Below are positions 383 to 18,396 of a stretch of DNA of 64,000 bases, piece after piece. Under the pieces are notes generated by a model, which searched no databases, was not told where the DNA came from, and was given only the letters and a program-made list of their open reading frames with translations. How positions within the stretch are numbered: position 1 is the stretch's first letter; each line of letters begins with the position of its first letter. Source of the DNA: Comamonadaceae bacterium (GTDB lineage Bacteria; Pseudomonadota; Gammaproteobacteria; Burkholderiales; Burkholderiaceae_C); NCBI GenBank assembly GCA_947375135.1, contig CANCER010000011.1:1-64000 (forward strand). Reading direction: 5' to 3'. The position numbers were made by a program, and so were the translations under genes.

Positions 383-2254
383 ATGACAACGATCCGACTG
401 ACCATGGCCCAGGCCCTGGTGAAATACCTGGCCGCGTTGCGCGTCGAAATGGAAGACGGCAGCATCCAGCCCTATTGCGGTGGCGTGTTCACCATCTTCG
501 GCCACGGCAATGTGGCGGGTTTTGGCGAGGCCCTGTGGGCCGAGCGCGCCACGCTGCCCACCTTCCGTGCCCACAACGAGCAGGGCATGGCCCACGCGGC
601 CATCGGCTTTGCCAAGGCGCATCTGCGCCAGCGCATGATGGCCGTGAGCAGCAGCATTGGCCCCGGCGCCACCAACATGGTCACCGCCGCCGCCGTGGCC
701 CACGTCAACCGCTTGCCCGTGCTGCTGCTGCCCGGCGACACCTTTGCCACGCGCGCACCCGATCCGGTGCTGCAGCAGGTGGAAAGCTTTCAGCAGGGCG
801 ATGTGTCGGCCAACGATTGCTTCCGGCCTGTGACCCGCTACTTCGACCGCATCAGCCTTCCTGAGCAGTTGCTCACGGCCCTGCCGCGCGCCATCCAGGT
901 GATGACCGATCCCGCCAACTGCGGCCCGGTCTGTCTGGCCCTGCCGCAGGACGTGCAGGCCCATGCTTTCGACTACCCGACCAGCTTCTTCGCGCCGGAA
1001 ATCATTCGCTTCCGCCGCCCGCCTGCCGATGCGTTTGAGCTGAGCCGTGCAGCGGCCCTGTTGAAGACCGCCAAACAGCCCCTGATCGTGGCCGGTGGCG
1101 GTGTGCTTTACAGCCAGGCCTGCGAGGGCCTGCGCGCCTTTGCCGAACGGTTCGGCATTCCTGTCGTGGAATCGCACGGGGGAAAAAGTGCCTTGGCCTG
1201 GGACCACCCGCTCAACGTCGGTGGCATTGGAGTGGATGGCGGCCCTGCGGCCAACGCACTGGCGCGCGAGGCCGATGTGGTGTTTGCTGTGGGCACCCGC
1301 CTGCAGGACTTCACCACCGGCTCACACGCGCTGTTTGCCAAGGCCCACTTGCTGAGCCTGAACGTGCAGCCCTTTGATGCCGGCAAATGGAGTGGCACAG
1401 CGCTGGTGGCCGATGCGCGCGTAGGTCTGGAGCAGCTCACCATGGCACTGACTGGCTGGCAGGCCGATGCCGCGTGGACGGCGCGCTGCAAGGCGGGAGC
1501 TGCGGGCTGGGTCGCCAAGGTCACCGAGCTGACAACGAACGTGCCTGCCGCAGGCACACTGCCCTATGACGCCGAAGTGATGGGCGCGGTGCGCGATTCG
1601 CTCAACGACTTTGGTGGCAACAGCGGCCAACACGACGTGGTGGTCTGCGCCGCCGGTACCCTGCCGGCCGAATTGCACAAGCTCTGGCGTGCGTCCCTGC
1701 CGGGCAATTACCACATGGAATACGGCTACTCCTGCATGGGCTACGAGATTGCCGGTGCCCTGGGCGCCAAGATGGCGCGCCCTGCGCAGGAAGTGATTGT
1801 GATGGTGGGCGACGGCTCCTACATGATGATGAACTCCGAGCTGGCCACCTCGGTGCTGCTGGGCAAGAAGCTGATCGTCGTGGTGCTGGACAACCGCGGC
1901 TATGGCTGCATACAGCGCCTGCAAAATGCCACCGGCAGCCCCAGCTTCAACAACATGCTGGATGACTGCATCCCCGATGGGGGCGAGGCCAGCAAGATTG
2001 ATTTCGCCATGCACGCGGCATCCATGGGTGCGGATGCAGTGCATGTGAGCAACGTGGCCGAACTCAAGACGGCGATGGTGAAAGCCCGCGCTGCCAAACG
2101 CACCCAGGTGCTGGTGATTGACACCACGCATACCCGCGTCACCCGCGAGGGCGGATGCTGGTGGGAAGTGGGCATTCCGGAAGTGTCCGAGCGCCCTGAG
2201 GTGAACCAGGCCTACGCCGGTTTCCTCGCCGCGAAAAAAGACCAGCGCGTGTAA
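383..2254 (+). CDS. iolD: 3D-(3,5/4)-trihydroxycyclohexane-1,2-dione hydrolase (IolD)
   Basis: A 623-residue thiamine-diphosphate enzyme of the acetolactate-synthase fold, normal for IolD. It hydrolytically opens the ring of the diketo inositol intermediate to 5-deoxy-glucuronate in the cytoplasm. The N-terminal FGHGNVAGFGEAL segment and the following RAHNEQGMAHAA (containing the ThDP-activating Glu) are characteristic of the family. The C-terminal ThDP/Mg motif starts at GDGSYMMMNSE near residue 475 and ends at DNRGYGC. The ATG at 383 is preceded by an AGGAGAG-like ribosome site. It lies between iolC and iolE, fitting a single iol transcription unit. Confidence 0.97.
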   Translation: MTTIRLTMAQALVKYLAALRVEMEDGSIQPYCGGVFTIFGHGNVAGFGEALWAERATLPTFRAHNEQGMAHAAIGFAKAHLRQRMMAVSSSIGPGATNMVTAAAVAHVNRLPVLLLPGDTFATRAPDPVLQQVESFQQGDVSANDCFRPVTRYFDRISLPEQLLTALPRAIQVMTDPANCGPVCLALPQDVQAHAFDYPTSFFAPEIIRFRRPPADAFELSRAAALLKTAKQPLIVAGGGVLYSQACEGLRAFAERFGIPVVESHGGKSALAWDHPLNVGGIGVDGGPAANALAREADVVFAVGTRLQDFTTGSHALFAKAHLLSLNVQPFDAGKWSGTALVADARVGLEQLTMALTGWQADAAWTARCKAGAAGWVAKVTELTTNVPAAGTLPYDAEVMGAVRDSLNDFGGNSGQHDVVVCAAGTLPAELHKLWRASLPGNYHMEYGYSCMGYEIAGALGAKMARPAQEVIVMVGDGSYMMMNSELATSVLLGKKLIVVVLDNRGYGCIQRLQNATGSPSFNNMLDDCIPDGGEASKIDFAMHAASMGADAVHVSNVAELKTAMVKARAAKRTQVLVIDTTHTRVTREGGCWWEVGIPEVSERPEVNQAYAGFLAAKKDQRV

Positions 2255-2321
2255 GGCACGCACCGTCACAACACCTGCCACGCAACACAAGATCAACCCC
2301 ACCTTTTTAAAGAGAACGCAC

Positions 2322-3248
2322 ATGACCTGGAACGTACAAATCGGTATCAACCCCCTGTCCTGGATGAACGACGACCTGCCCTCGCTGGGCGGCGAAACCC
2401 CGCTGGAATTGGCCCTGAAAGAAGGCAAGGAAATCGGCTACGAAGGCTTCGAGCTAGGCAACAAATTCCCCAAGGACGGCCCCGGCCTGAAGGCCAAGCT
2501 GGACGAATTCGGCCTGGCCTGCGTGTCGGGCTGGTACTCCGGTTTTCTGGCCGAAGTGGAGCCGGGCCAAAGCAATGCCGACGCCGTGGCCGCAGAGATC
2601 GAACGCTGCAAGGCGCACATGCGCAAGCTGCAATACAACGGCGTGAAAGTGGTGGTCTATGGCGAATGCGCCGGCACCGTGCAGGGCCAGATCGACACCC
2701 CCGTATCCAAGCGCCCCACCTTTGCAACTGAAGCCCTGTGGCAGGCTTACGCTGAGCGCCTGAATGCCTTTGGCGAACACCTGCTCAGCAGCTACGGCAT
2801 CAAGCTGGCCTACCACCACCACATGGGCGCTTACGTAGAGTCCCCCTCCGATGTGGACAAGCTGATGGCCCTGACCGACCCGGCCAAGGTGTTCCTGCTG
2901 TTTGACACCGGACACGCCTACTTTGGCGGCGCGGTCAACCCCGTCACCCTGCTGGAAAAGCATGTCAAGCGCGTGGTGCATGTGCACTGCAAGGACGTGC
3001 GTGCATCCGTCATCGTACAGGCCCGCAACGACAGCTGGAGCTTTTTGAACGGCGTGATCAACGGCACCTTCACTGTGCCCGGCGACGGCAGCATCGACTA
3101 CAAGGCAGCGCTCACCGTGTTGAAGAACGCAGGCTATGAAGGCTGGCTAGTGGTGGAAGCCGAGCAGGACCCGGCGGTGGCCCCCAGCTACGAATACGCC
3201 AAGAAGGGTTTTGATACCCTGCGCCGCCTCGTCGACAGCCTCGCTTAA
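2322..3248 (+). CDS. iolE: Myo-inosose-2 dehydratase (IolE)
   Basis: A 308-residue xylose-isomerase-like TIM barrel of the IolE family. It dehydrates scyllo-inosose (2-keto-myo-inositol) to the dione that IolD hydrolyses, using a divalent metal. The start VQIGINPLSWMNDDLP and the metal-site segments YHHHMGAYVES, FDTGHAYFGG and VHVHCKDVR are family hallmarks. An AAAGAGAA ribosome-binding site precedes the ATG. The 67-bp gap after iolD has no promoter or terminator that I can recognise, so it is likely cotranscribed. Confidence 0.97.
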   Translation: MTWNVQIGINPLSWMNDDLPSLGGETPLELALKEGKEIGYEGFELGNKFPKDGPGLKAKLDEFGLACVSGWYSGFLAEVEPGQSNADAVAAEIERCKAHMRKLQYNGVKVVVYGECAGTVQGQIDTPVSKRPTFATEALWQAYAERLNAFGEHLLSSYGIKLAYHHHMGAYVESPSDVDKLMALTDPAKVFLLFDTGHAYFGGAVNPVTLLEKHVKRVVHVHCKDVRASVIVQARNDSWSFLNGVINGTFTVPGDGSIDYKAALTVLKNAGYEGWLVVEAEQDPAVAPSYEYAKKGFDTLRRLVDSLA

Positions 3249-3260
3249 GGAATCACAACC

Positions 3261-4082
3261 ATGGTCAGCCCTTTACTTGCCAAGGCCGCGCCTGCCGGTC
3301 GCGAAATCGTCACCGTGACACCCGAGCGCGCGGGCTGGACCCATGTGGGTTTCCGCGCCCTGCGCCTGAATCCGGCAGAGAGCGAGACCGTGGACACGGG
3401 TTCGCGCGAACTGTGTTTGGTGGTGCTGACCGGCACCGTGGACGTGACCGTGGACGGCGTCACCTACGCCAATCTGGGCACGCGTACCAGCGTGTTTGAA
3501 GAGGTCTCGCCGGCGGCCGTCTATGTGCCCGCTGGCAAGACCGTCACCGTGGGCAATGTGCCCGGCGCCACGAACGTGGCCGAAGTGGCGCTGTGCACCG
3601 CTCCTGGCCAGGGTGGCTCCTGCGTGGTCAGCGTGATCGACTCTGCCGCCATGCGCCGCAGCGTGCGCGGCCAGGGCACCAACACGCGCTATGTCTGCGA
3701 CATCCTGCCGCACGACGACCCGCGCGCCGCGCATCTGCTGGTGGTCGAGGTGATCACCCCGGCCAGCCACAGCTCCAGCTACCCGCCCCACAAACACGAT
3801 GTGGAGCAGCCCCCGGTAGAGACCCAGCTGGAGGAGGTCTATTACCACCGCCTCAACCCGCCGCAGGGCTTTGCCTTCCAGCGCGTCTACACCGACGACC
3901 GCAGCATCGACGAAGCCTGCGCCGTGGAAGACCACGATGTGGTGATGGTGCCCAGGGGCTACCACCCGGTCACCGCACCGCATGGCTATGACCTGTATTA
4001 CCTGAACGTGATGGCCGGCCCGAACCGCTTCTGGGTCTTCAAGAACGACCCGGTGCATGAGTGGATACTGGCCAAGGCTTAA
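3261..4082 (+). CDS. iolB: 5-deoxy-glucuronate isomerase (IolB)
   Basis: A 273-residue bicupin of the IolB/KduI family. It isomerises 5-deoxy-D-glucuronate to 5-dehydro-2-deoxy-D-gluconate, the IolC substrate. The cupin metal motif is visible as SSSYPPHKHDVEQ around residue 172, and HPVTAPHGYDLYYLNVMAGPN near the C terminus is strongly conserved in IolB. It starts 12 bp after iolE with an AAGGAA ribosome site. It is the last gene of the visible iolC-D-E-B run. iolG and iolA lie elsewhere, with copies at 13.7 and 37.7 kb in this window. Confidence 0.97.
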   Translation: MVSPLLAKAAPAGREIVTVTPERAGWTHVGFRALRLNPAESETVDTGSRELCLVVLTGTVDVTVDGVTYANLGTRTSVFEEVSPAAVYVPAGKTVTVGNVPGATNVAEVALCTAPGQGGSCVVSVIDSAAMRRSVRGQGTNTRYVCDILPHDDPRAAHLLVVEVITPASHSSSYPPHKHDVEQPPVETQLEEVYYHRLNPPQGFAFQRVYTDDRSIDEACAVEDHDVVMVPRGYHPVTAPHGYDLYYLNVMAGPNRFWVFKNDPVHEWILAKA

Positions 4083-6170: not shown

Positions 6171-6956
6171 TCAGTGCAAGTGGCTTTCGATCTCGGCCTC
6201 CAGCCCGGCCATGGCCTCGCCACCGGCCATCAGATCGGTCACCTCTTCGCGTGTCTTTTCTCCCTTGCGGAAGTCGGCCGCCTTCATGCCCCGAATCAAC
6301 ACCGCAAAGTGGTCACCTACCGTCAGCGCATGGGTCACCTGGTGCGTGATGAAAATCACTGCAATGCCCTTCTTGCGCGCCTGCAAGACGATGCGCAGCA
6401 CATGCGCCGCTTCCTTCACGCCCAGAGCGGCAGTCGGCTCATCCAGAATCAGCACACTGGCACCGAAGTGCACGGCGCGGGCAATAGCAAGGGCCTGGCG
6501 TTCACCGCCGGAGAGGCCGCCTACGAGGCGGTCCCCGTCGTTGATGCGGGTGATGCCGAGTTGGCGCATTTCGCGCACCGCAATCTCGTTGGCCTTTTTG
6601 CGGTCAAACACTTCAAACGGTCCCCAGCGTTTGGTGGGCTCCGCACCCACGAAGAAAGAGCGGCCAATACTCATCAGCGGGAAGGTGCCACCAAACTGGT
6701 GCACGGTGGCAATGCCGTGGTCGCTGGCTTCGCGCGGGTTTTCGAACGAAACCGGTTTGCCGTTCATCAGCATTTCGCCAGAGGTGGGCTTGTGCACACC
6801 AGACAGCAGACGGATCAGCGTGGACTTGCCCGCGCCGTTGTCGCCCAGCAGGCACAGCACTTCACCGGCCTTCACTTCGATCGAGATATCGTGCAGGACG
6901 TCAATCGGTCCAAACGATTTATTGACGCTTTTGAGTTGCAGTAAGGGGGCGGTCAT
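6171..6956 (-). CDS. Sugar (probable inositol) ABC transporter ATP-binding protein
   Basis: A 261-residue single-domain ABC ATPase. Walker A is GDNGAGKST (about residue 38), the signature is LSGGERQALAIARAV, and Walker B is VLILDEPTAAL. It has one nucleotide-binding domain, like FrcA, rather than the two of RbsA, so it probably works as a homodimer at the inner membrane with the adjacent permease. Its start overlaps the permease stop by 4 bp, showing translational coupling. With the neighbouring binding protein it forms a CUT2-type importer, and the location next to iol genes makes inositol or a derivative the likely cargo. Confidence 0.93.
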   Translation of the reverse strand: MTAPLLQLKSVNKSFGPIDVLHDISIEVKAGEVLCLLGDNGAGKSTLIRLLSGVHKPTSGEMLMNGKPVSFENPREASDHGIATVHQFGGTFPLMSIGRSFFVGAEPTKRWGPFEVFDRKKANEIAVREMRQLGITRINDGDRLVGGLSGGERQALAIARAVHFGASVLILDEPTAALGVKEAAHVLRIVLQARKKGIAVIFITHQVTHALTVGDHFAVLIRGMKAADFRKGEKTREEVTDLMAGGEAMAGLEAEIESHLH

Positions 6957-8026
6957 GGGGCGGCCTTGGGTTTGATGCGCGGTGCGGCGTGCGAGATCGC
7001 CATGGCGCGGAAAGTATTGTTGAGCAGGACGGCGGCGAGCAACAGCACGCCAATGATCAGGCTGGCCCAGTTGGCGTCAAAGCCCGTGTAGTAAATGCCC
7101 TGGTTAACGATGGCAAAGGTCATGGTGCCCAGCACAATGCCGATCACCGAGCCGTAGCCACCGGTCAGGATCACCCCGCCAATCACCACCGCAATGATGG
7201 AGTTGAAGATGAAGGACTGGCCGGCCGAAACCTGCGCACTGTTGTAGAGGATGGCCTGGCACATGCCGACAAAAGCGGCGCACAGGCCACTGGCCATGTA
7301 CAGCGCCACATTGAGCTTGTCGGTGGGGATGCCGGCATTGCGGGCGCTGACCTTGTCGCCGCCCAGCGCCAGAATCCAATTGCCGTATTTGGAGTGACCC
7401 AGTATGTAGCCCACGAACAGCATGGCGGCTATCCACCACAGCAGGATCACTTCAAACTTACCGTTGATGAAGTCGCCAAAAACCATCTTGGTGATCGGGT
7501 CGCTTTTCAAGGCCACGCTTGTACTGCCGGCCACAATGACAGAGAGACCCAGCGTCAGGCCAGCCACAGCAAAGAGGGTTCCCAGTGTCACCACGAAAGA
7601 AGGCAGGTCGGTCTTGATGATCAGGTAGCCGTTCAGGAAGCCAATCCCCAGGCCCAAGGCCAGGGAGCAGACGATGCCTACCGGCATAGGCAGCCCGAAG
7701 TGGCCGGAAACGATGGCCACCATCATGGAGCTGGCCGGGATGACGCTGCCAATCGACAGGTCCAGGTGGCCGGCAATCATCAACAGGCCAATCGGCAGGG
7801 CAATGATGCCCAACTCGGCGGCGATGTTGAGCCAGCTGGCCAGGCCGCTGACTGACAAAAAGGTTTCTCCACCGAAGATGGCGAAGAAGACAAAGACACA
7901 GACCAGACCAATGAAGGATCCTGTCTCCGGCCGGCGGATGAGATTGCCAAGCGAGGCCATGGAGGGACCCGCGCTTGGGGGGGCCGGGTTTGCGGCCGCA
8001 GGGGTTTGGATGGAGTTGGCGGTCAT
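6953..8026 (-). CDS. Sugar (probable inositol) ABC transporter permease
   Basis: A 357-residue, strongly hydrophobic CUT2-family permease (RbsC/FrcC type) with about 8-10 membrane segments after an Ala/Pro-rich cytoplasmic N terminus. Conserved pieces include a LDLSIGSVIPASSMMVA-like segment and GGVILTGGYGSVIG near the C terminus. The ORF track begins at a TTG at 8044; the first ATG is at 8026 and gives MTANSIQT, which I prefer. It lies between the binding protein and the ATPase. A stem-loop separates it from the binding-protein gene, consistent with lower permease than binding-protein expression. Confidence 0.92.
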   Translation of the reverse strand: MTANSIQTPAAANPAPPSAGPSMASLGNLIRRPETGSFIGLVCVFVFFAIFGGETFLSVSGLASWLNIAAELGIIALPIGLLMIAGHLDLSIGSVIPASSMMVAIVSGHFGLPMPVGIVCSLALGLGIGFLNGYLIIKTDLPSFVVTLGTLFAVAGLTLGLSVIVAGSTSVALKSDPITKMVFGDFINGKFEVILLWWIAAMLFVGYILGHSKYGNWILALGGDKVSARNAGIPTDKLNVALYMASGLCAAFVGMCQAILYNSAQVSAGQSFIFNSIIAVVIGGVILTGGYGSVIGIVLGTMTFAIVNQGIYYTGFDANWASLIIGVLLLAAVLLNNTFRAMAISHAAPRIKPKAAP

Positions 8027-8059
8027 GGTTTCATTTGTTTGCAAATTTCAAAGCGTGTG

Positions 8060-8089
8060 GCCCGGACCGGCGTTTTGGCCGATCCGGGC
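8060..8089 (-). other. Intercistronic stem-loop between binding protein and permease genes
   Basis: An 11-bp inverted repeat (GCCCGGATCGG / CCGGTCCGGGC, one G-U type pair) with an 8-nt loop lies in the 56-bp gap between the two genes. There is no U-run. Structures at this place in ABC operons typically protect the upstream binding-protein mRNA or limit read-through, giving an excess of binding protein. Confidence 0.5.
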
Positions 8090-8100
8090 TGCACAGGTTC

Positions 8101-9081
8101 TTAGCGCGCGCCGGCTGCCGCACCCGCCACTGTGGCTGCCACATTGGAGGCATCGACAATTCCGGGGCCGGTCAGGATGGGCGCAGTCGGCACCTTCAGG
8201 CCGTACTGCACATAGCCATTGAGCATCGACACGGCCAGGTAGCCTTGCAGATAGGGCTGCTGGTCGATACAGAACAGCTGGGTGCCGTCCTTGATGCGCT
8301 GCAGGTTGGTCGAATCAATGTCAAAGGTGCCCAACTTGACCTGCTTGATCAGGCCGGCCTGGCTGATGCCGGTGGCCGCGCTGGTGGCGTCTCCCGCGCT
8401 GATGGTGATGAGGCCGTCCACCGTCTTGTCTTTAAGCAGCGCGGCCTTCACAGCCTGGGCCACGGCAGTCGGGTTGCCGAATGACGAAGAAGGCAGTGGC
8501 AATTGCGTGCTTTTGCCGCCGCCCTTGGCCATGCCGTCTGCCAGGCCTTTGCAACGCGATTCCTGGTTAGTGGAGCCGGGCTGGGTGTTCACGCACAGCA
8601 CGTTCTTGGCGCCAGCCTTGGAGAAATATTCGCCGCCTCCCATACCGGCGACATACTCTTCGCTACCCACGTAGTTTTGCGCACCCAGGCGCTTGGCTGC
8701 TTCCATGCCGCCGGAGTTGTAAATAATCAGGGGCACGCCCGCTGCCACCACTTCCTTGAAGGCCGCGTCCATGGCCTCGGGTACCCAGTCGGGGCCGACG
8801 ATGGCATCGGGCTTCTGGCTCAGCGCCGTGCGGATCAGCTTGGCGGCATCAGGTCCCAGGTTGTCATAGTTCTGCGGGCCCAGCCAGGTCACAGTGCCAC
8901 CAGCGGCCTTGACTACCAGCGCGGCGTCGTCTGCTCCCTTCTTGACGCGCGACCAGAACGGATCATCCGCCTTGCCGCCAATTACAAAAATCTTGGGACC
9001 AGCAGCCAGGGCGGCTGTTACGGTGGTGACCAGGGCGGCGGCCACTACGGCCATCTTAAAAAAGGTTTTTGCTGATTTCAT
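8101..9081 (-). CDS. Periplasmic sugar-binding protein of the CUT2 importer (probable inositol or methyl-inositol binding)
   Basis: A 326-residue type I periplasmic binding protein (RbsB/IbpA-like). It has a clear signal peptide (MKSAKTFFKMAVVAAALVTT, cleaved after AALA), then KIFVIGGKADDPFWSRVKKGA, the usual start of the mature domain. It delivers the ligand to the permease in the periplasm. It is the first gene of a four-gene minus-strand operon (binding protein, permease, ATPase, RpiR). A LacI-type palindrome lies 41 bp upstream of its ATG. MocB of rhizopine catabolism is a protein of this class; whether this one prefers inositol, a methylated inositol or an inosamine cannot be told from sequence. 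Confidence 0.9.
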   Translation of the reverse strand: MKSAKTFFKMAVVAAALVTTVTAALAAGPKIFVIGGKADDPFWSRVKKGADDAALVVKAAGGTVTWLGPQNYDNLGPDAAKLIRTALSQKPDAIVGPDWVPEAMDAAFKEVVAAGVPLIIYNSGGMEAAKRLGAQNYVGSEEYVAGMGGGEYFSKAGAKNVLCVNTQPGSTNQESRCKGLADGMAKGGGKSTQLPLPSSSFGNPTAVAQAVKAALLKDKTVDGLITISAGDATSAATGISQAGLIKQVKLGTFDIDSTNLQRIKDGTQLFCIDQQPYLQGYLAVSMLNGYVQYGLKVPTAPILTGPGIVDASNVAATVAGAAAGAR

Positions 9082-9416: not shown

Positions 9417-10436
9417 TCAGCTGGCGCTGCGCCGGTGCGAGGACCGCAGCACCAGCGAGCCCGGCGCCATCAGCTTGCGGTGGCTTGTACTGCCGGGCTC
9501 GAGCACCAGGCGAATGGCCTCTCCCACCAGGTGCTCCACCGGCTGGTGGAAGGTGGTGAGCTCATAGCTGGGTGAGGCCGCCATCTCGATGTCATCAAAG
9601 CCGACAATGGCGATTTTGCGCTGGGCATTGGTCGCCACCAGTGCGTCCATGGCGCCAATGGCAAGAATGTCGTTCTCGCAAAACAGCGCCTCCAGACGCT
9701 GATCCCTAGGGGTGGATTCCAGGTAGCGCTGCAGCGCCTGCATGCCCTGCTCGCGTCGGTAGTGCGCGGTCTCGATCACGCAGGCGAGGGCCGCGCCGCA
9801 GGCCTCTAGCCGGTCCCTGAATCCCTCCATGCGCCGCAGCTCGGTGCGCTCCGACAGCGGGCCGGCCATGTAGCCTATTCGCCGATAGCCCTGTGCCAGG
9901 AACAGGTCGGCAATCTCGGTACCTGCGGCATAGCCGTCGGTGCTGACAAAGGGGATTTCGGCCATGCCGCTGTTGCGCATGATCACCACCAGCGGGATGT
10001 GCTTGATGCGCTGCGCCAGCTCCACCAGTTCGTGCTTGAGCGTGGTGCCCAGGAAGAGGATGCCATCCACCTGGAACTGGTCGGCCAGACGCAGGGCCGT
10101 GGCCGGGCTGTACTCCGGGCTGACGTTGAGCAACAAGGAACTCAGCCCCTTGGCCTGGAGCTGCCGGGTGGCCTCGTTCAGGATCTTGAGCTGATTGGGA
10201 TTGCCCAGCTCGTCAGCCACCAGGGCCATCAGGCCGGTGCTGCGGGTGGAGAGGCTGCGTGCCAGCAAATTGGGCGAGTAGCCCATGTCGGCGGCGAGCT
10301 GGAGAATGCGCGCGCGCACCTCGGGTGCAATCGAGGCGCCATCGGTGAAGGCGCGTGACACCGTCCACTTGGAGACGCCGGCACGGGCCGCTACATCGCT
10401 GGCAGTAACCTTTTTGTTGGGAGGGCGGGGTGTCAT
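9417..10436 (-). CDS. LacI-family transcriptional regulator
   Basis: A 339-residue LacI/GalR regulator when started at the ATG at 10436. The ORF track's longer start adds 24 residues without homology. The N-terminal helix-turn-helix reads VTASDVAARAGVSKWTVSRAF, followed by the hinge (DMGYSPNLLARSLSTRSTG) and a periplasmic-binding-like effector domain. It probably represses both the ABC importer on one side and the mocD-like oxygenase operon on the other, since matching 14-bp palindromes occur upstream of both and the gene sits between them. The effector would be an inositol derivative by context. Confidence 0.92.
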   Translation of the reverse strand: MTPRPPNKKVTASDVAARAGVSKWTVSRAFTDGASIAPEVRARILQLAADMGYSPNLLARSLSTRSTGLMALVADELGNPNQLKILNEATRQLQAKGLSSLLLNVSPEYSPATALRLADQFQVDGILFLGTTLKHELVELAQRIKHIPLVVIMRNSGMAEIPFVSTDGYAAGTEIADLFLAQGYRRIGYMAGPLSERTELRRMEGFRDRLEACGAALACVIETAHYRREQGMQALQRYLESTPRDQRLEALFCENDILAIGAMDALVATNAQRKIAIVGFDDIEMAASPSYELTTFHQPVEHLVGEAIRLVLEPGSTSHRKLMAPGSLVLRSSHRRSAS

Positions 10437-10577
10437 GGTGGGGCGTGGGGTGAGAGGCTGCCAAAAATGGTATTTTGCACCTGAGAGCACCTCGATGAAA
10501 ATTTTCACTGAACTAGCGTAAACCCTTAAGAAAAAGCTGTTTCTCCTGTGTAATGATCCTCCTCATTGGAAATTTTT

Positions 10578-10683: not shown

Positions 10684-11688
10684 ATGGACGACTTGCAATA
10701 CGGAAAACGCAACAAGCGCGGGGACTGGGCGCCCCACGCGACGCTGGAGGCCGCCCCCCTGTGGGTGCGCCCGCTCAATGTAGGCAATATCCTGCGCTGG
10801 CTGGTGGGCTATGTCTGGCCCTGGAATGCGTTTCACATGGCCGTCACTCTGGTCTACTGGTATCTGGTGGTACCCGACGTGGAAACCCTCAAGAACGTGG
10901 ACTGGGCCTGGGCACTTCGTCTGTATGCGGTGAATGCCGCGGGCATTCTTTTGTTCTATGGCGCCTTTGAATACCAGCTGTACAGGCGCCGTGGCCAGGG
11001 CACCCGCTTCAAATACAACGGCAAGTTCCCGGCCGACAATGCGTCGGATGTTTTCTGGTTCAAGAGCCAGAACATGGACAACTTCCTGCGCAGCTTCTTT
11101 GTCTCCATCCCGCTGTGGACGGTGGTGGAGGTGCTGTTCCTGTGGTGCTTTGCCAATGGCTATGTGCCCTGGCTGAGCTGGAGCGTCCACCCCGTCTACC
11201 TGGCAGTCGTGCTGCTGCTGGCGCCCGCCATTCACGAGGTGCACTTCTTCTGTATCCACCGGCTCATCCACACGCCGCTGCTCTACAAGTGGATCCACTC
11301 CATCCACCACAACTCGGTAAATCCCACGCCCTGGTCGTCATTGTCGATGCACCCTGTCGAAGGCTTTCTGTACCACGCGGTGGCGCTGTGGCATCTTGTC
11401 ATCCCCTCCAACCCCATCGTGGCGCTGTTCCAGATCAACATGGCGGGCTTTGGCGCCATCAACGGCCACATCGGCTTTGACAAGGTGGAAACTTCGGAGG
11501 GCCAGGGCTTCAAGAGCCATGCCTATGCCCACTACCTGCACCACAAGCACTTCGAGGTGAACTACGGCGGCGACCAACTCATACCCCTGGACGTCTGGTT
11601 CGGCACCTGGCACGACGGTTCGCCCGAAGGCGAGGCCCGCATGCAGGCCCGGTTTGCCAAGAAGCGCGAACGCATGAATGCAGCCTGA
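10684..11688 (+). CDS. Fatty-acid-hydroxylase-superfamily diiron monooxygenase (MocD-like, probable O-demethylase)
   Basis: A 334-residue membrane protein starting at the ATG at 10684 behind a TTTCAGGAAT ribosome site; the track start 54 bp upstream lies inside the promoter. It has four or five hydrophobic segments and the histidine clusters of the sterol-desaturase/fatty-acid-hydroxylase superfamily: HFFCIH (187-192), HSIHH (205-209) and HYLHHKH (283-289), which bind two irons. The next gene is a MocE-type Rieske ferredoxin and a MocF-like reductase is in the same operon, matching mocDEF of Sinorhizobium, where this trio removes the O-methyl group of rhizopine. With IolG, FolD and PurU in the operon, oxidative demethylation of a methylated inositol, releasing formaldehyde, is my inference. 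Substrate is unproven. Confidence 0.82.
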   Translation: MDDLQYGKRNKRGDWAPHATLEAAPLWVRPLNVGNILRWLVGYVWPWNAFHMAVTLVYWYLVVPDVETLKNVDWAWALRLYAVNAAGILLFYGAFEYQLYRRRGQGTRFKYNGKFPADNASDVFWFKSQNMDNFLRSFFVSIPLWTVVEVLFLWCFANGYVPWLSWSVHPVYLAVVLLLAPAIHEVHFFCIHRLIHTPLLYKWIHSIHHNSVNPTPWSSLSMHPVEGFLYHAVALWHLVIPSNPIVALFQINMAGFGAINGHIGFDKVETSEGQGFKSHAYAHYLHHKHFEVNYGGDQLIPLDVWFGTWHDGSPEGEARMQARFAKKRERMNAA

Positions 11689-11732: not shown

Positions 11733-12044
11733 ATGCCCCAATGGATTGACGCCTGCGCCACCAGCGACGTGGAGCCCGAAGAGGTGATCCGCTTCGACCA
11801 CGCCACCCAGACCTTTGCGATTTTTCGCAGCCCGGATGACGAATATTTTTGCACCGCGGGCCTGTGCACCCACGAAAAGGTGCACCTGGCCGACGGCCTG
11901 GTGATGGACTACGAAATTGAGTGTCCCAAACACAGCGGCGCTTTTGACTACCGCACCGGCGAGGCCATCCGCGCGCCGGTCTGCGTGAACCTGAAAACAT
12001 TCCCCATCAAGGTCGAAAACGGCCGCATCCACATCGAGATCTGA
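11733..12044 (+). CDS. MocE-family Rieske 2Fe-2S ferredoxin
   Basis: A 103-residue Rieske ferredoxin. Its cluster ligands are visible as C45-T-H47 and C64-P-K-H67. It shuttles electrons from an FAD reductase to an oxygenase in the cytoplasm; the partners here are the MocF-like reductase at 16508 and the membrane oxygenase immediately upstream. The protein matches the small, soluble MocE type and not the longer oxygenase-fused Rieske domains. AAGGAGA precedes the ATG, 44 bp after the oxygenase stop. Confidence 0.9.
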   Translation: MPQWIDACATSDVEPEEVIRFDHATQTFAIFRSPDDEYFCTAGLCTHEKVHLADGLVMDYEIECPKHSGAFDYRTGEAIRAPVCVNLKTFPIKVENGRIHIEI

Positions 12045-12050
12045 ATCACC

Positions 12051-12839
12051 ATGAGCAATGCCTTCACCCTTGCAGCCTGCGCCGAAATGCTGTGGCGCGA
12101 CAAACCCATGCAGTGGCGCGTCAAACGCCTGACCGAAATGGGATTTCAAGTGGGCCTGTGGAACTGGCCCGAGCATGACCTGGCCATGCTGGAAAAATCC
12201 GGCGCCACCTTCTCCATCATGAATGGCTACCTGAGTGGCCGCCTCAGTGATGACGAGGGAGCGGCCGAGTTGCTGCGCACAGCGCGCGAAACCGCACAAG
12301 TGGGCAAGCGCCTGGGGGTAGCCCGCCTGAACCTGCACGGCACCGGTCTGGGTGAGGGCGGCCTGCCCGTCACGCCCTGCCAGGTGGTGACCGGCCCGAT
12401 GTGGCTCAAGGCCCGCGACACCCTGGCGCGCATTGCCGACATGGCCGAAGAAGAAGGCGTGACCTTCACCCTGGAAAACCTGAACCTGCCGGTGGACCAT
12501 CCGGGCGTGCCTTTTGGCCGCGCCGAGGACACGCTGGCGCTGGTCTCGTCGGTGAACCACCCGCGCCTGCGCCTGAACCTGGACCTGTACCACGCGCAAA
12601 TCGGCGAGGGCAATCTGGTGGAACTGTGCCGCAGCTGCCTGCCCTGGATTGGCGAAGTGCAGGTGGCCGATGTGCCCGGGCGCATGGAGCCCGGCACCGG
12701 AGAAATCAACTACCCCGGTATTGCCCGCGCCCTGTTTGCCATGGGTTACCGCGGCCCGGTGGGCATGGAGGCGTTTGCCAGCGGCGACCCGGAAGCGGCG
12801 CTGGAAGCCTTCCGCAGCGCCTTCACCATAGCCGCCTGA
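12051..12839 (+). CDS. Hydroxypyruvate isomerase-like TIM-barrel enzyme (Hyi family)
   Basis: A 262-residue xylose-isomerase-like TIM barrel. Hyi-type signatures are present: a TLENLN segment with the first catalytic Glu, LDLYHAQIGEGN, QVADVPGRMEPGTGEINY and GMEAF with the second Glu. Classical Hyi interconverts hydroxypyruvate and tartronate semialdehyde, but relatives include IolE and IolI, and the operon context makes isomerisation of a keto-inositol equally possible. It follows the ferredoxin by 6 bp. The family assignment is firm; the substrate is not. Confidence 0.8.
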   Translation: MSNAFTLAACAEMLWRDKPMQWRVKRLTEMGFQVGLWNWPEHDLAMLEKSGATFSIMNGYLSGRLSDDEGAAELLRTARETAQVGKRLGVARLNLHGTGLGEGGLPVTPCQVVTGPMWLKARDTLARIADMAEEEGVTFTLENLNLPVDHPGVPFGRAEDTLALVSSVNHPRLRLNLDLYHAQIGEGNLVELCRSCLPWIGEVQVADVPGRMEPGTGEINYPGIARALFAMGYRGPVGMEAFASGDPEAALEAFRSAFTIAA

Positions 12840-12850
12840 GGAGTTACGCC

Positions 12851-13657
12851 ATGCAAGCCAAACGCCCCACTGTTGCCGACATACGCGCCATGAAGGCGCG
12901 TGGAGAAAAAATCTCCATGCTGTATGTCACCACCCTCGAAGAAGCTGCTGCCGCAGACGCGGCCGGCATCCACATGCTGTCAATTGAAGGGCGCTTCTTC
13001 AGCCCCGAAATGCGCACCGCTGCAGGGCGCTGCTTTGTGCAGGTCGGCATGCCCTATGGCCCATATGGCAACCTGGCCACCGCTGAGGACTATTTGCGTG
13101 AAGCCTTCCGCCTGATGCGCCTGGGCGCTGACTGCCTGTACTGCGCTGCATCCCTGGACATCCAGAAGGTACTGTGCGACAACGCCGTGCCGGTGGTAGC
13201 CCACGTGGGACTGATCCCCTCGCAATGCACCTGGACCGGCGGCTTCAAGGCCGTGGGCAAGACCGCTGCCGGTGCGCAGCAGGTGTGGCAGCACGTGCAG
13301 CGCCTGGAGGCCGTTGGCTGCTTTGGCGCCGAGCTCGAAGTGGTGCCCGACCGCGTGGCCGAGGCCATCAGCAAAAACACTTCCCTGATCATGCTGGGCA
13401 TGGGCGCAGGCCCCCATGCCGATGCGCAGTACCTGTTCACGGAGGACGTGCTGGGTCACACCGCGGGCCACAAGCCGCGCCATGGCAAGACCTATCGCAA
13501 CTTCGCCGCCGAGTTCGCCCGGCTGCAGGCCGAGCGGATTGCCGCCTTCCAAGAGTTCATCGCCGATGTGAACAGCGGTGCCTATCCGGCGCCCGAGCAC
13601 ACCGTGCCCATTCTTGATGCCGAGTTCGAAGCCTTCATCGCACAGATGAAGCGCTAA
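12851..13657 (+). CDS. Divergent PanB-like (ketopantoate hydroxymethyltransferase superfamily) protein
   Basis: 268 residues from the ATG at 12851; the ORF track extends the frame far into the preceding gene. The C-terminal half matches PanB: HVGLIPSQ (118-125), LEVVP (162-166) with the catalytic-type Glu, and MLGMGAGPHADAQYL. The N-terminal half is changed. The GDSLG Mg site is replaced by SIEGR (44-48), the ADLPF Asp by Gly (VGMPY, 65-69), the KIEGG Glu by Ala (98-101), and the loop after GDSLG is about 25 residues shorter. PanB transfers a hydroxymethyl group from methylene-tetrahydrofolate to a 2-oxo acid. Here, beside FolD, PurU and an oxygenase, it is more likely a catabolic enzyme handling a C1 unit or a 2-oxo acid aldol. 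I expect no role in pantothenate synthesis. Confidence 0.78.
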   Translation: MQAKRPTVADIRAMKARGEKISMLYVTTLEEAAAADAAGIHMLSIEGRFFSPEMRTAAGRCFVQVGMPYGPYGNLATAEDYLREAFRLMRLGADCLYCAASLDIQKVLCDNAVPVVAHVGLIPSQCTWTGGFKAVGKTAAGAQQVWQHVQRLEAVGCFGAELEVVPDRVAEAISKNTSLIMLGMGAGPHADAQYLFTEDVLGHTAGHKPRHGKTYRNFAAEFARLQAERIAAFQEFIADVNSGAYPAPEHTVPILDAEFEAFIAQMKR

Positions 13658-13686: not shown

Positions 13687-14697
13687 ATGTTCAAAATTGG
13701 TCTACTCGGCGCAGGCCGCATCGGCAACGTACACGCCAAAAGCATCACAGCCCATAGCGGTTGCCAGCTGGTCGCCATCTCGGATGTCAACATGGCATCT
13801 GCCGAAACACTGGCCGCGAGTTGCGGCGCAGTTGCACGCAGTACTGCCGACATCATTGCCGACAAGTCGATTGACGCGGTGCTGATAGCCACGTCCACTG
13901 ACACCCACTCCAACCTGATCGAAGCTGCCACAGCGGCGGGCAAGGCCGTGCTGTGCGAAAAGCCAGTGGACCTGGACCTGAGCCGCGCCCTGGCTTGCCA
14001 GGACGTGGTGGCTGCCAACGGCCGCCCGGTGATGATTGGCTTCAACCGCCGCTTTGACCCCAACTTTGCAGCACTCAAGCGCGCGTTTGATGCGGGCGAA
14101 ATCGGCAAGGGCGAGCTGCTGTCCATTACCTCGTTTGACCCCTCGCCTCCGCCCGTGTCTTACATCAAAGTGTCGGGTGGCATCTTCCGCGACATGGCCA
14201 TCCATGACTTTGACATGGCCTGCTGGATTTTTGGCGGCTTGCCCGAAAGCGTGTCGGCCGTGGGCACCAGCATCGTGGACCCAGCCATTGGCCAGGCCGG
14301 TGACTTTGACACCGCTGTGATCACACTGCGCTATGCCGATGGCCGTATCGCCGTGATCAAGAACAGCCGCCGTGCCGTCTATGGCTACGACCAGCGCGTG
14401 GAGCTGCTGGGCGCGACTGGCCTGTTGCAAGCTGGCAATGTGCTGGAGAACACCGTCACCAAAACCACCACAGCCGGTGCCATTGGCGCCAAGCCCGAGT
14501 TCTTTTTCCTGGAGCGCTACATGCGCGCCTACGAGGCGGAATGGTCGGCCTTCATCGGCGCACTGCAAACCGGCGGCGCCTTGCCCGTCACGCTGAAGGA
14601 CGGCGTGAACGCCCTGGCAGTGGCCGAAGCCGCAACCTTGTCGGCCAAGACCGGTGTGCCGGTGGCACTGAAGGATGGCAAACCCGTCCAGCCCTGA
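13687..14697 (+). CDS. iolG: Inositol 2-dehydrogenase (IolG, Gfo/Idh/MocA family)
   Basis: A 336-residue NAD(P)-dependent oxidoreductase. It has the Rossmann start IGLLGAGRIGNVHAKS, the catalytic-Lys motif CEKPVDLD (about 93-100) and the family motif GGIFRDMAIHDFD with the catalytic Asp and His. It oxidises myo-inositol to scyllo-inosose for IolE. No iolG is seen in the iolC-D-E-B run, so this copy may serve the pathway; iolG could also lie upstream of the window. In this operon it would act on the demethylated inositol. CCAGGAGAAAC is a strong ribosome site. Confidence 0.92.
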   Translation: MFKIGLLGAGRIGNVHAKSITAHSGCQLVAISDVNMASAETLAASCGAVARSTADIIADKSIDAVLIATSTDTHSNLIEAATAAGKAVLCEKPVDLDLSRALACQDVVAANGRPVMIGFNRRFDPNFAALKRAFDAGEIGKGELLSITSFDPSPPPVSYIKVSGGIFRDMAIHDFDMACWIFGGLPESVSAVGTSIVDPAIGQAGDFDTAVITLRYADGRIAVIKNSRRAVYGYDQRVELLGATGLLQAGNVLENTVTKTTTAGAIGAKPEFFFLERYMRAYEAEWSAFIGALQTGGALPVTLKDGVNALAVAEAATLSAKTGVPVALKDGKPVQP

Positions 14698-14739: not shown

Positions 14740-15588
14740 ATGTTGACTTCATTTATTCTTACCCTGTCCTGCACGGACCAGCCGGGAATCGTCCACGCCG
14801 TATCGGGTTTGCTCTTTCAACATGGGGCCAACATTGAGGAGGCAGCCCAGTTCAACGACCAGAGTACGCGCCTGTTCTTCATGCGTGTGCAATTTGCCTG
14901 TGACGAAGGCGCAGAAGAGGCCGTGCAAGCCGCACTGCAAGACCTGGCGCACGCCTGGTCCATGCAACTGGCCTTGCACCGGGCCGCACGCCGCACACCA
15001 ACCATCATCATGGTCAGCCAGCACGGCCATTGCATCAACGATCTGTTGTTCCGCTGGAAGAGCGGCCTGTTGCCGGTGGATATACGTGGCATCGTCAGCA
15101 ACCACCGCGATTTCTATCAGCTTGCCGCGAGTTACAACGTTCCGTTCCACCACATCCCCGTCACAGCTGCCACCAAGGCCGAGGCCGAAGCACGCCAACT
15201 GGAGTTGATCGCCAAGGAAGGAGCCGAGCTGGTGGTGCTGGCGCGCTACATGCAGGTGTTGTCCGACCCGATGTGCCGGGCCCTCAACGGGCGTGCCATC
15301 AACATTCACCACAGCTTCCTGCCCAGCTTCAAGGGTGCGCGGCCTTATTACCAGGCCCATGACCGGGGGGTGAAGCTCATTGGTGCCACGGCGCACTATG
15401 TCACCGCCGATCTGGACGAAGGCCCCATCATCGAGCAGGACGTGGCGCGCGCCGACCACGCCATGACACCCGAACACCTGACCACCATTGGTCGCGATAC
15501 CGAAAGCCAGGTGCTGGCGCGGGCCGTGAAATGGCACGGCGAGCATCGTGTACTGCTCAATGGCCATCGCACCGTGGTATTTCGCTGA
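14740..15588 (+). CDS. purU: Formyltetrahydrofolate deformylase (PurU)
   Basis: A 282-residue protein with an N-terminal ACT-like domain (about 1-85: [20 protein letters not shown]) and a C-terminal formyltransferase-fold hydrolase domain. The latter carries [20 protein letters not shown] (about 186-205) and the catalytic Asp region [13 protein letters not shown]. It hydrolyses 10-formyl-tetrahydrofolate to formate and tetrahydrofolate in the cytoplasm. A purU in a catabolic operon directly followed by folD is the signature of C1 disposal after demethylation, as known for glycine betaine and related demethylation clusters. Its stop codon overlaps a possible folD ATG. Confidence 0.95.
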
Positions 15589-15605: not shown

Positions 15606-16475
15606 ATGGCAGCCCAAATCATCGACGGCAACGCCCTGGCCGCCCACACCCGCGCCGACGTGGCGCGCCGCACCGCCTTGCTCACCAGTCGTGGCCTGAC
15701 CCCTGGCCTGGCCGTGGTGCTGGTGGGCGAGAACCCGGCCTCCCAGGTCTATGTGCGCAACAAGGTCAAGGCCTGCGCCGACGCCGGCCTGCACTCCGTG
15801 CTGGAGCGCTACCCCGCCACCATGACCGAAGCTGAACTGCTGGCACGCATTGACGCCCTGAACCAAGACGACAGCATCCACGGCATTCTGGTGCAACTGC
15901 CCGTGCCAGCGCACATTGACGCCAACAAGGTGATTGAAGCCATCAGCCCGGCCAAGGATGTGGACGGCTTTCACGTCTCCAGCGCCGGTGCCCTGATGGT
16001 CGGCCAGCCGGGTTTTTGGCCCTGCACGCCCTACGGCTGCATGAAGATGCTGGAAAGCATTGGCTACAGCCTGCGTGGCAAGCACGCGGTGGTGATCGGG
16101 CGCAGCAACATCGTGGGCAAGCCCATGGCCATGATGCTGTTGGCGCAAAACGCTACCGTCACCATCTGCCACAGCGCCACCGCCAATCTCAAGGCCATGA
16201 CGCTGCAGGCCGACGTCATTGTGGCGGCCGTGGGCAAACGCAATGTGCTGACGGCCGACATGGTCAAGCCCGGTGCCATCGTGCTCGATGTGGGCATGAA
16301 CCGCAACGACGAGGGCAAGCTCTGCGGCGATGTGGACTATGCCGGTGTCAGCCAGGTGGCCGGCTACATCACCCCGGTGCCCGGCGGTGTCGGCCCCATG
16401 ACGATTGCCATGCTGCTGGTGAACACCTTGGAAGCCGCCGAGCGCGAAGCCTTGGAGCTTCAAGCACTGGCTTGA
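15606..16475 (+). CDS. folD: Bifunctional methylenetetrahydrofolate dehydrogenase / methenyltetrahydrofolate cyclohydrolase (FolD)
   Basis: 289 residues from the ATG at 15606 (MAAQIIDGN, the usual FolD start). An in-frame ATG at 15588 overlaps the purU stop as TGATG and could be the coupled start, adding six residues. Family motifs: [30 protein letters not shown] (NADP site) and [15 protein letters not shown]. It converts methylene-tetrahydrofolate through methenyl- to 10-formyl-tetrahydrofolate. Together with PurU it oxidises a formaldehyde-level C1 unit to formate while recycling tetrahydrofolate. The ORF track's start at 15531 lies inside purU and is rejected. Confidence 0.95.
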
Positions 16476-16507: not shown

Positions 16508-17743
16508 ATGCCCCATACAAACAGTTCATCCATTGTGATCGTCGGTGCGGGTCACTGTGGTGGCCGCACCGCGCAGTACCTGCGTGAGTTTGGCTTTGCA
16601 GGGGCAATCCACCTGGTGGGTGACGAGGCCAGCCCCCCCTATGAACGTCCGGCCCTGTCCAAAGAGGTTCTGACGGCCGCCAAGCCACTTGACGCGTTGG
16701 ACCTCCTGACTGCCGAGCGCATGGAGGCACTGGCGCTGACACGCCATTGCGCGTCCGTCCTGTCCATCGATACCGTGGGCAAAACAGCACTGCTGTCCAA
16801 TGGGCAAACGCTGGGCTTTGGCGCCTTGCTCTTTGCCAATGGCGGCCGTCCACGGCGTCTGGGCATCCCGGGTGAAGAGCTGCCAGGTGTGTTGAGCCTT
16901 CGGACCAAAGATGACGCGGCTCGTCTGCTTGGCCGTCTGCGGGCCGGACAGCATCTGGCTGTGATAGGCGGTGGTTTCATTGGACTGGAAGTGGCAGCCT
17001 CCGCACGCAAGTTGGGTTGCGAGGTGACCCTGGTCGAAGCGGGCCCGCAACTCATGGGGCGGGTGGTGCCAGCGGTGCTGGCCGACTGTGCACGCGCGGT
17101 GCATGCGTCTCAGGGCGTTCAGCTGCATTGCCATGTCAGCCCGGTGCGCATCGAACCACAAGACCAGCGACTGGCGCTCACCTTGTCCGATGGCAGCACC
17201 GTGCTGGTTGACACCGTGCTGGTTGGAATTGGCATCGTGCCCGGTGTGGCGCTTGCAGAGGCTGCGGGCGTGGCGGTGGCGCGTGGCATTCTGGTGGACG
17301 CCCAATTGCGTACCAACATCCCCGATGTCTATGCGGCTGGCGATGTAGCGGAATTTCCCAGCCCGGATTCCGGCACCTTGATGCGACAGGAAACCTGGCA
17401 CAACGCAGAGTCACAAGCCCGTGTTGCGGCGCAGAATCTGCTGGGCGCTCAGGTGGCGCTGAGTGCCAAGCCGTGGTTCTGGTCCGACCAATATGACTAT
17501 CAACTGCAGCTCAGTGGCGAGCCTGCTCCTGGCCTGGTGCAGGTGGTGCGTGCGCAGGAGGGCGGCGACCTCATCCTGTTCTACCTGAACGGGAGCAGCA
17601 AAATTGTGGGCATCTGCGGCTGGGGACTGACAGCGCGCATCGCACGGGACCTGAAAATTGCGCGTGCCTTGGTGGAACGCGGAGCCAGTGCCAGTGCCGA
17701 GGTATTGGCGGACCCGGCAACCCGTCTGAAATCCTTGTTATGA
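16508..17743 (+). CDS. FAD-dependent ferredoxin reductase (MocF-like)
   Basis: 411 residues from the ATG at 16508; the longer track ORF reads through folD in another frame. It is a Rossmann-fold ferredoxin/rubredoxin reductase with an FAD motif SIVIVGAGHCGGRTAQ, the PYERPALSKEVL segment typical of oxygenase-coupled reductases, an NAD motif LAVIGGGFIGLEVAAS, the second FAD motif VYAAGDVAEF and a C-terminal reductase domain. It moves electrons from NAD(P)H to the MocE-type ferredoxin at 11733, completing the three-component oxygenase. It lies six genes away from the ferredoxin but in the same transcription unit. The 3' end overlaps the next gene by 4 bp. Confidence 0.9.
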   Translation: MPHTNSSSIVIVGAGHCGGRTAQYLREFGFAGAIHLVGDEASPPYERPALSKEVLTAAKPLDALDLLTAERMEALALTRHCASVLSIDTVGKTALLSNGQTLGFGALLFANGGRPRRLGIPGEELPGVLSLRTKDDAARLLGRLRAGQHLAVIGGGFIGLEVAASARKLGCEVTLVEAGPQLMGRVVPAVLADCARAVHASQGVQLHCHVSPVRIEPQDQRLALTLSDGSTVLVDTVLVGIGIVPGVALAEAAGVAVARGILVDAQLRTNIPDVYAAGDVAEFPSPDSGTLMRQETWHNAESQARVAAQNLLGAQVALSAKPWFWSDQYDYQLQLSGEPAPGLVQVVRAQEGGDLILFYLNGSSKIVGICGWGLTARIARDLKIARALVERGASASAEVLADPATRLKSLL

Positions 17744-18396
17744 AAACCCTTTTGTGCTTTGGTGACTCCAATACCCACGGCACCATTCCCATGCGCTCCC
17801 TTGACGAAGTGTCGCGCTATGCATTCAATCAAAGATGGCCGGGCCTGGTGCAGGCAGCACTGGGCAGCGACTGGTGGGTGATTGAAGAAGGCTTACCGGG
17901 GCGAACCAGTTCCTTCGATGATCCCCAGGAGGGAGAAGACCGCAATGCCCTGCGCTACTGGCAGGCCTGCCTGCAAAGCCACAGGCCGGTGGATGCGATT
18001 GTCATCATGCTGGGTACCAACGACCTCAAGGCCCGCTTCGTGGCCACGCCCGAGCGCATTGGGGAGGGCGTGGCGCGGCTGATCGCTATCGCGCTGGAGA
18101 ACACCCCCCCTGGCAGGCGCCATCCCTTCATCCTGGTGGTGACACCTGCACCGATTGAGGAGCTGGGCTTCTTTCGTGAACCATTTGCCGGTGGGCAGGC
18201 CAAATCCCGGCAGCTGCCAGCGGAGTTTTCCAAGCTGGCACGCCACCAGGGCGTGCAGGTGCTGCATGCCGGGGATTGTTGTGAGGTCAGTGCCGTGGAT
18301 GGCATTCACCTGGACGCCATGGCACACCAGCAACTGGGGCGTGCGATTTTCAATGCCCTGCAAATAGTGTCCGCCGGTGGTGAAGACGGGTTCTAG
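17740..18396 (+). CDS. SGNH/GDSL-family hydrolase (arylesterase-like)
   Basis: A 218-residue SGNH hydrolase without a signal peptide. The catalytic Ser is S10 in CFGDSNTHG (block I), block III is MLGTNDLK, and the Asp-His pair is in SAVDGIHLDAMA near the C terminus. Relatives hydrolyse aryl or short acyl esters. It overlaps the ferredoxin reductase stop (ATGA), so it is the last gene of the oxygenase/C1 operon. This suggests a role in removing an acyl group from the imported inositol derivative, which is inference. A small GGATA/TATCC hairpin follows the stop at 18401-18414. Confidence 0.83.
   Translation: MKTLLCFGDSNTHGTIPMRSLDEVSRYAFNQRWPGLVQAALGSDWWVIEEGLPGRTSSFDDPQEGEDRNALRYWQACLQSHRPVDAIVIMLGTNDLKARFVATPERIGEGVARLIAIALENTPPGRRHPFILVVTPAPIEELGFFREPFAGGQAKSRQLPAEFSKLARHQGVQVLHAGDCCEVSAVDGIHLDAMAHQQLGRAIFNALQIVSAGGEDGF

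Follow-up and report, generated by a model that had tools for sequence, protein, structure and literature searches.

A PanB-like protein lacking the metal ligands of PanB, encoded in a MocDEF-type operon, as a candidate for folate-linked formaldehyde condensation

The stretch of DNA analysed here (64,000 nt, referred to as the window) carries an apparent operon with the gene order MocD-MocE-MocC-PanB-like-IolG-PurU-FolD-MocF, located near iolDEB. The genes and features of this region are as follows.

383..4082, plus strand: iolD, iolE and iolB of inositol catabolism (TIGR04377, TIGR04379 and TIGR04378, all above cut-off)
6171..9081, minus strand: sugar/cyclitol ABC transporter consisting of ATPase, permease and a binding protein that resembles the rhizopine-binding model
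9417..10508, minus strand: LacI-family regulator, divergent from the operon (PF00356 and Peripla_BP_1/3)
10684..11688, plus strand: oxygenase in the MocD position, membrane di-iron FA_hydroxylase family (PF04116; homologues in the same position)
11733..12044, plus strand: MocE-family Rieske [2Fe-2S] ferredoxin (TIGR02377, 178.6 bits, cut-off 136)
12051..12839, plus strand: TIM-barrel sugar isomerase/epimerase-like protein of the MocC/hydroxypyruvate-isomerase type (PF01261, 103 bits; NCBIfam hydroxypyruvate isomerase below cut-off)
12851..13657, plus strand: PanB-like protein (PanBL), 268 aa, PanB fold without the Mg ligands, with Glu163 and His118 kept and Glu161 gained
13687..14697, plus strand: IolG/MocA-type inositol 2-dehydrogenase (TIGR04380, 416 bits, cut-off 355)
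14740..15588, plus strand: PurU, formyltetrahydrofolate deformylase (TIGR00655, 327 bits, cut-off 286)
15606..16475, plus strand: FolD, methylene-THF dehydrogenase/cyclohydrolase (NF010786, 518 bits, cut-off 421)
16508..17743, plus strand: FAD ferredoxin reductase in the MocF position (Pyr_redox_2 and Reductase_C)
17740..18396, plus strand: SGNH/GDSL hydrolase at the 3' end of the apparent operon (PF13472)

From MocD through MocF, the intergenic gaps measure 44, 6, 11, 29, 42, 17 and about 32 nt. Both PurU and FolD of the operon are second copies in this genome, the others being located at G000:C21 and G000:C48, respectively. The binding protein of the ABC transporter reached 194.7 bits against the rhizopine-binding model NF052284, below its cut-off of 420. 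The SGNH/GDSL hydrolase gene overlaps the end of the reductase gene, and its product might deacylate an esterified methyl-cyclitol. The DEF part of the moc system demethylates; the initial annotation of this DNA had overlooked the MocDEF-type oxidative demethylase in the operon.

The PanBL reading frame is genuine: it is preceded by a GGAG ribosome-binding site, starts 11 nt past the preceding stop codon and is separated from its neighbours by short gaps. Its product matched Pfam family PF02548 with 145 bits (cut-off 28.7), the sole match in the domain search, in which neither a Fae, a Gfa nor a GcvT domain was detected. It fell below both NCBIfam PanB models, with 132 bits against a cut-off of 272 (NF001452) and 100 bits against a cut-off of 207.6 (TIGR00222). 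PDB relatives by sequence were PanB structures. The initial annotation had called the product a PanB-fold protein and proposed a comparison of its predicted structure with PanB. An AlphaFold model built from 58 homologues (mean pLDDT 94.4) agreed with this assignment: the best 28 Foldseek matches were all PanB (E 2e-21), and relatives of 2-methylisocitrate lyase and PEP mutase ranked behind. An ordinary panB (342 bits) is present on another contig of the same genome. Database entries nevertheless name PanBL-type proteins as pantothenate enzymes, and plasmid records list them as 3-methyl-2-oxobutanoate hydroxymethyltransferase.

For residue counts, 83 PanBL homologues obtained by scanning 85,462 species genomes, the window copy included, were aligned with three PanB references. 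We take Asp45, Asp84 and Glu114 to be the Mg ligands of E. coli PanB. The Asp84 position is occupied by Gly in 74/83 homologues and by Asp in a single one; the Glu114 position holds Ser, Ala or Gly in 75/83 and Glu in none; the Asp45 column is a gap in 63/83 and never contains an acidic residue. The replacement of the Asp/Asp/Glu metal positions, originally described for the window copy, thus applies to that copy and to practically all 83 homologues. Lys112, whose loss had not been recorded before, is also missing throughout, with Tyr at its position in 78/83. A missing segment had been given as about 25 residues; the deletion is real, and its size as counted from the alignment is about 20 residues, since the positions of Asp45 and Asp84 are 39 apart in PanB and 19 apart here. 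The HxGLxP, LExVP and GMGAG segments are retained as described. The Glu of SIEGR, found in the window copy, does not provide a conserved substitute ligand, as relatives read SVPP at this site.

Other parts of the predicted active site are strictly kept. Glu163 (PanB Glu181; the second Glu of ELEVVP), His118 (PanB His136) and Asp199, the last as in PanB, are invariant in 83/83 homologues. A second glutamate, Glu161, has been gained and is present in 83/83; further newly fixed residues are Arg210 (all), His211 (82/83), Trp128 (99%) and Glu31 (98%), and Cys98 is nearly conserved (72/83). Because Glu161 and Glu163 are two residues apart on a single predicted strand (159-163 of the AlphaFold model), both should point into the barrel. 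The ligand losses extend through the clade and so characterise the subfamily; for this reason, and because other residues are invariant, random drift of a single gene and a pseudogene were both rejected. Judged from the alignment, the pattern is that of an enzyme with a changed reaction and not that of a dying gene.

A maximum-likelihood tree separated 87 PanBL rows, among them a Burkholderiales branch, from 9 rows of PanB and PanB paralogues with a support of 100/100 and a very long stem. A tree of PanB homologues read together with genomic context had been suggested with the initial annotation, which postulated a new subfamily not serving pantothenate synthesis. The separate clade, its linkage to demethylase genes and PurU/FolD (see below) and the canonical panB elsewhere in the genome support this view, and the subfamily represents a new form of a known fold whose function is probably also new. 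Members were found in Rhizobiales, Rhodobacterales, Pelagibacter-like marine Alphaproteobacteria, Verrucomicrobiota, Actinomycetota and Burkholderiales. The closest relatives of the window protein are Rhizobiales and Rhodobacterales proteins with 74-79% identity, yet among about 100 genomes of its own genus only one other clear carrier was detected (G018, 58%). As such similarity to taxonomically distant relatives coincides with rarity in the genus, horizontal transfer is likely.

The Burkholderiales branch (L005-L010 in G170, G177, G121, G135, G193 and G137) forms a second branch and shares these losses (KVRFD, VPLV, CQWS). Its proteins have about 300 aa and an additional N-terminal MASHATGDGGIPPRD segment. 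Neighbouring genes encode fused isobutyryl-CoA-mutase-like proteins, NamZ and Bug-type receptors, without MocE, and a shared, nameable demethylase context was not found in these six neighbourhoods. The PanB homologue of the Filomicrobium methanesulfonate locus has about the length of these proteins. A further Burkholderiales PanB paralogue (L016, L017), in which Glu114 is replaced by Gln (KPQGG), falls on the PanB side of the tree.

Across 80 PanBL loci, MocE, MocF and an FA_desaturase- or FA_hydroxylase-family oxygenase recurred as neighbours of the gene. For linkage analysis, 28 genomes were selected by PanB-like sequence alone and searched for MocE (above cut-off) and for PanBL, the latter search separating PanBL (mostly >269 bits) from ordinary PanB (about 90-115 bits). 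MocE was located within 4 kb on the same strand for 46 of the 51 PanBL copies, usually together with the membrane di-iron oxygenase and the reductase, that is, a demethylase set of the rhizopine type. An artefact of genome choice by MocE was considered and rejected, as the genomes had been found by PanB-like sequence alone. The reverse fraction (PanBL near 47/62 MocE genes) is biased by the choice of genomes and is no proof of linkage. The other 15 of these 62 MocE genes had no PanBL nearby; some MocDEF clusters thus work without a local copy. A control search of such clusters for another C1 gene yielded none that stood out among the genes detectable by similarity under a non-exhaustive annotation.

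PurU was present within 4 kb of 12/53 PanBL copies (the 28 genomes plus G000 and G018), with 0.14 expected by chance; the nominal Poisson p of 1e-19 is overstated, as the genomes are related and the enrichment is not fully independent. In four copies it is 73-89 nt downstream of PanBL; in others it stands after MocF, at a downstream distance of about 2.7 kb, and two more show a convergent or divergent layout. FolD comes next in five cases. With at least five distinct arrangements, the association is therefore not a single inherited block. PurU was found near 10/46 PanBL copies accompanied by MocE versus 0/15 MocE genes without PanBL (Fisher p = 0.045), and in G018 (L121, G018:C37) PurU and PanBL are divergently arranged and MocE is absent from the vicinity. 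It is thus PanBL that PurU accompanies. About three quarters of the PanBL copies have no PurU nearby, and FolD is nearby in fewer still; since PurU is missing near most copies and 15/62 MocE genes lack PanBL, PanBL is to be regarded as accessory, like DmmD. The L121 surroundings comprise a sensor kinase, a TRAP transporter, a flavin monooxygenase and a sigma-54 regulator, without MocDEF.

PanBL is retained with oxygenases of different classes, namely FA_desaturase, FA_hydroxylase or, in marine Alphaproteobacteria, PhyH located behind a tandem pair. Most relatives have a PF00487 (FA_desaturase) oxygenase beside MocE, the type to which MocD itself presumably belongs, whereas the window has PF04116. 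On pSymB of Sinorhizobium meliloti (L113:4892-9801), genes for LacI, fatty acid desaturase, MocE, FAD oxidoreductase and 'PanB' are consecutive. Six marine Pelagibacter-like loci (L102, L103, L105, L108, L110, L088) have the order MocD-MocF-MocE-PanB-like followed by a second desaturase and an FA_hydroxylase, and continue with gluconolactonase-like and dehydratase-like genes; in these very small genomes they make up a demethylation pathway that is still uncharacterised. At L055:4249-10810, in a genome without true MocE, PanBL comes after genes for nicotinate-type pyridine degradation (FAD monooxygenase, alpha/beta hydrolase, Asp/Glu-racemase-like, isochorismatase, NicX-like and MarR proteins); trigonelline or another N-methylpyridine may supply the methyl group there. 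These varied settings could have in common that a methyl group is lost oxidatively as formaldehyde. Other members lie outside demethylase contexts, namely in Verrucomicrobia (with sulfatases or glycosidases), in Actinobacteria and as a GH4 pair in marine Alphaproteobacteria, and for several distant members no neighbouring gene could be recognised as a demethylase. In L106, L109 and L111 (marine Alphaproteobacteria), PanBL directly follows a GH4-family glycosidase gene, with a gap of 2 nt in L106 and no adjacent MocE.

A role of PanBL in folate-dependent C1 metabolism is well supported by genomic context. On balance, we consider it probable, at somewhat better than an even chance, that PanBL condenses formaldehyde from oxidative demethylation with tetrahydrofolate, FolD and PurU then releasing formate. 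In the proposed scheme, an O-methylated inositol or a close relative would be imported, and the membrane oxygenase, the MocE ferredoxin and the MocF reductase would hydroxylate its methyl group. The resulting hemiacetal would break into free cyclitol and formaldehyde, as expected by analogy with MocDEF. PanBL would bind tetrahydrofolate and convert it with formaldehyde to 5,10-methylene-THF, the folate half of PanB chemistry, the keto-acid half having gone along with the metal site. FolD would oxidise methylene-THF to formyl-THF and PurU would release formate and recycle THF, while IolG would oxidise the cyclitol for IolE, IolD and IolB. At the level of aligned residues, loss of the keto-acid and metal half with retention of the base and His fits a folate-only reaction.

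Several published systems bear on this scheme. mocDEF and mocC are needed for catabolism of rhizopine (3-O-methyl-scyllo-inosamine; PMC10107442), and the purU-mabO-folD operon of pAO1 is a precedent for the scheme (PMC3891541). DmmD of dmmDABC binds H4F and was proposed on genetic grounds to conjugate monooxygenase-derived formaldehyde with H4F (PMC5520151). A methanesulfonate monooxygenase region carries a PanB homologue, a candidate relative of PanBL, and GcvT (PMC4433239). PanB acts on methylene-THF (PMC4814558). Formaldehyde and THF condense too slowly in vivo when no enzyme assists (PMC7073904), and a catalyst would therefore be of advantage; in E. coli, PanB was suspected of contributing to the condensation and a contribution was not found (PMC7073904).

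The best rival to this condensation is removal of a hydroxymethyl group by a retro-aldol step, in which a C-methyl group would be hydroxylated, IolG would make the neighbouring ketone and PanBL would cleave off CH2OH as methylene-THF. This would be nearest to PanB chemistry, namely PanB run backwards on a cyclitol with the base Glu and His retained; IolG adjoins PanBL in the window and in L035, L036, L039, L045 and L075, and FolD and PurU would serve equally. Against it, no member retains the enolate-stabilising metal of PanB, many clusters lack an adjacent IolG, L055 stands beside a pyridine-degradation set in a genome without MocE, and the mocDEF precedent concerns a methyl ether. A formaldehyde/folate link had already been proposed at the outset, and it is supported by the linkage to demethylase and PurU/FolD genes; the retro-aldol version put forward with it is possible and less likely, because the enolate-stabilising metal is gone and the gene stands beside unrelated pathways that apparently share methyl removal. 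We regard it as unlikely overall. Somewhat less probable still is capture of formaldehyde on an acceptor other than folate, such as a thiol or a sugar ketone, or formation of a hydroxymethyl adduct that enters the pathway. The nearly conserved Cys98 (72/83) and the presence of PurU near only about a quarter of the copies would agree with such an acceptor, but the PurU/FolD enrichment lies far over chance and PanB ancestry implies use of folate.

Loss of all three metal ligands and the extreme linkage to MocE (46/51) would also be expected of a degenerate, non-catalytic PanB acting as structural subunit, electron-transfer scaffold or formaldehyde/folate sensor of the oxygenase. Glu161, Glu163, His118 and Asp199 in 83/83 and His211 in 82/83 look like a working active site, many MocDEF clusters have no PanBL and the G018 copy has no MocE nearby; this reading is about as doubtful as that of the non-folate acceptor. 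That PanBL is a second PanB for pantothenate synthesis, as annotated in databases, appears very improbable: PF02548 membership and the hydroxymethyltransferase annotation of the plasmid records speak for it, whereas the scores lie below both NCBIfam cut-offs, the metal and Lys112 positions are lost, and the PanBL operon is catabolic, in a genome that has a separate canonical panB. The same scores, the separate panB and the lost metal-site residues led us to reject a normal PanB isozyme.

Returning to condensation of formaldehyde with THF, it is a long-standing question whether cells possess an enzyme that initiates folate-linked formaldehyde oxidation, and PanBL is a concrete candidate. Reviews call this step spontaneous; its measured spontaneous rate is far too low to support growth (PMC7073904). 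In the open-access literature searched, no dedicated enzyme for condensation of formaldehyde with folate, no paper on the PanBL subfamily or its MocDEF link, no biochemistry for any member and nothing relevant on MocE with PanB or on methyl-inositol catabolism was found. The broader proposal, to which we give a chance just short of even, is that a widespread PanB-derived family is the missing THF-dependent formaldehyde-activating enzyme, which works without metal or keto acid and serves pathways of O-, N- and perhaps S-linked oxidative demethylation across rhizobia, roseobacters, Pelagibacter-like marine bacteria and Burkholderiales. If true, a common misannotation as pantothenate biosynthesis would be corrected, and PanBL would point to pathways, as yet uncharacterised, by which rhizobia and other Alphaproteobacteria demethylate methylated plant cyclitols, with Sinorhizobium meliloti pSymB as one example.

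Among known systems, PanBL shares with PanB (EC 2.1.2.11; PF02548; PDB 3vav, 1m3u) the fold, the HxGLxP, LExVP and GxGAG motifs, the catalytic-type Glu and His and, presumably, folate ancestry. It differs in lacking the Mg ligands and Lys112, in being about 20 residues shorter at the keto-acid lid, and in its new invariant Glu161, Trp128 and Arg210-His211, its long C-terminal helix and its demethylation operon. The rhizopine moc genes (mocDEF, mocBA, mocC, mocR; PMC10107442) resemble the window in the MocE-family ferredoxin, FAD reductase, MocC/MocA-type proteins, a similar binding protein and the theme of a methylated cyclitol; the window differs by its FA_hydroxylase-family oxygenase, a LacI regulator instead of a MocR-type one, a binding protein below the rhizopine cut-off and the PanB-like, PurU and FolD genes. 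The purU-mabO-folD unit of nicotine plasmid pAO1 (PMC3891541) is likewise a demethylation unit with dedicated FolD and PurU oxidising methylene-THF, but there the oxidase itself makes methylene-THF and no PanB-like protein takes part. Fae (H4MPT) and Gfa (glutathione) accelerate condensation of formaldehyde with a C1 carrier, as proposed for PanBL, with other folds and carriers; neither domain occurs in PanBL. The nearest functional precedent is DmmD of the dimethylamine monooxygenase dmmDABC (PMC5520151), likewise an accessory gene tightly linked to a multicomponent monooxygenase and proposed to conjugate the released formaldehyde with H4F, although it has an unrelated GcvT fold and serves N-demethylation of dimethylamine.
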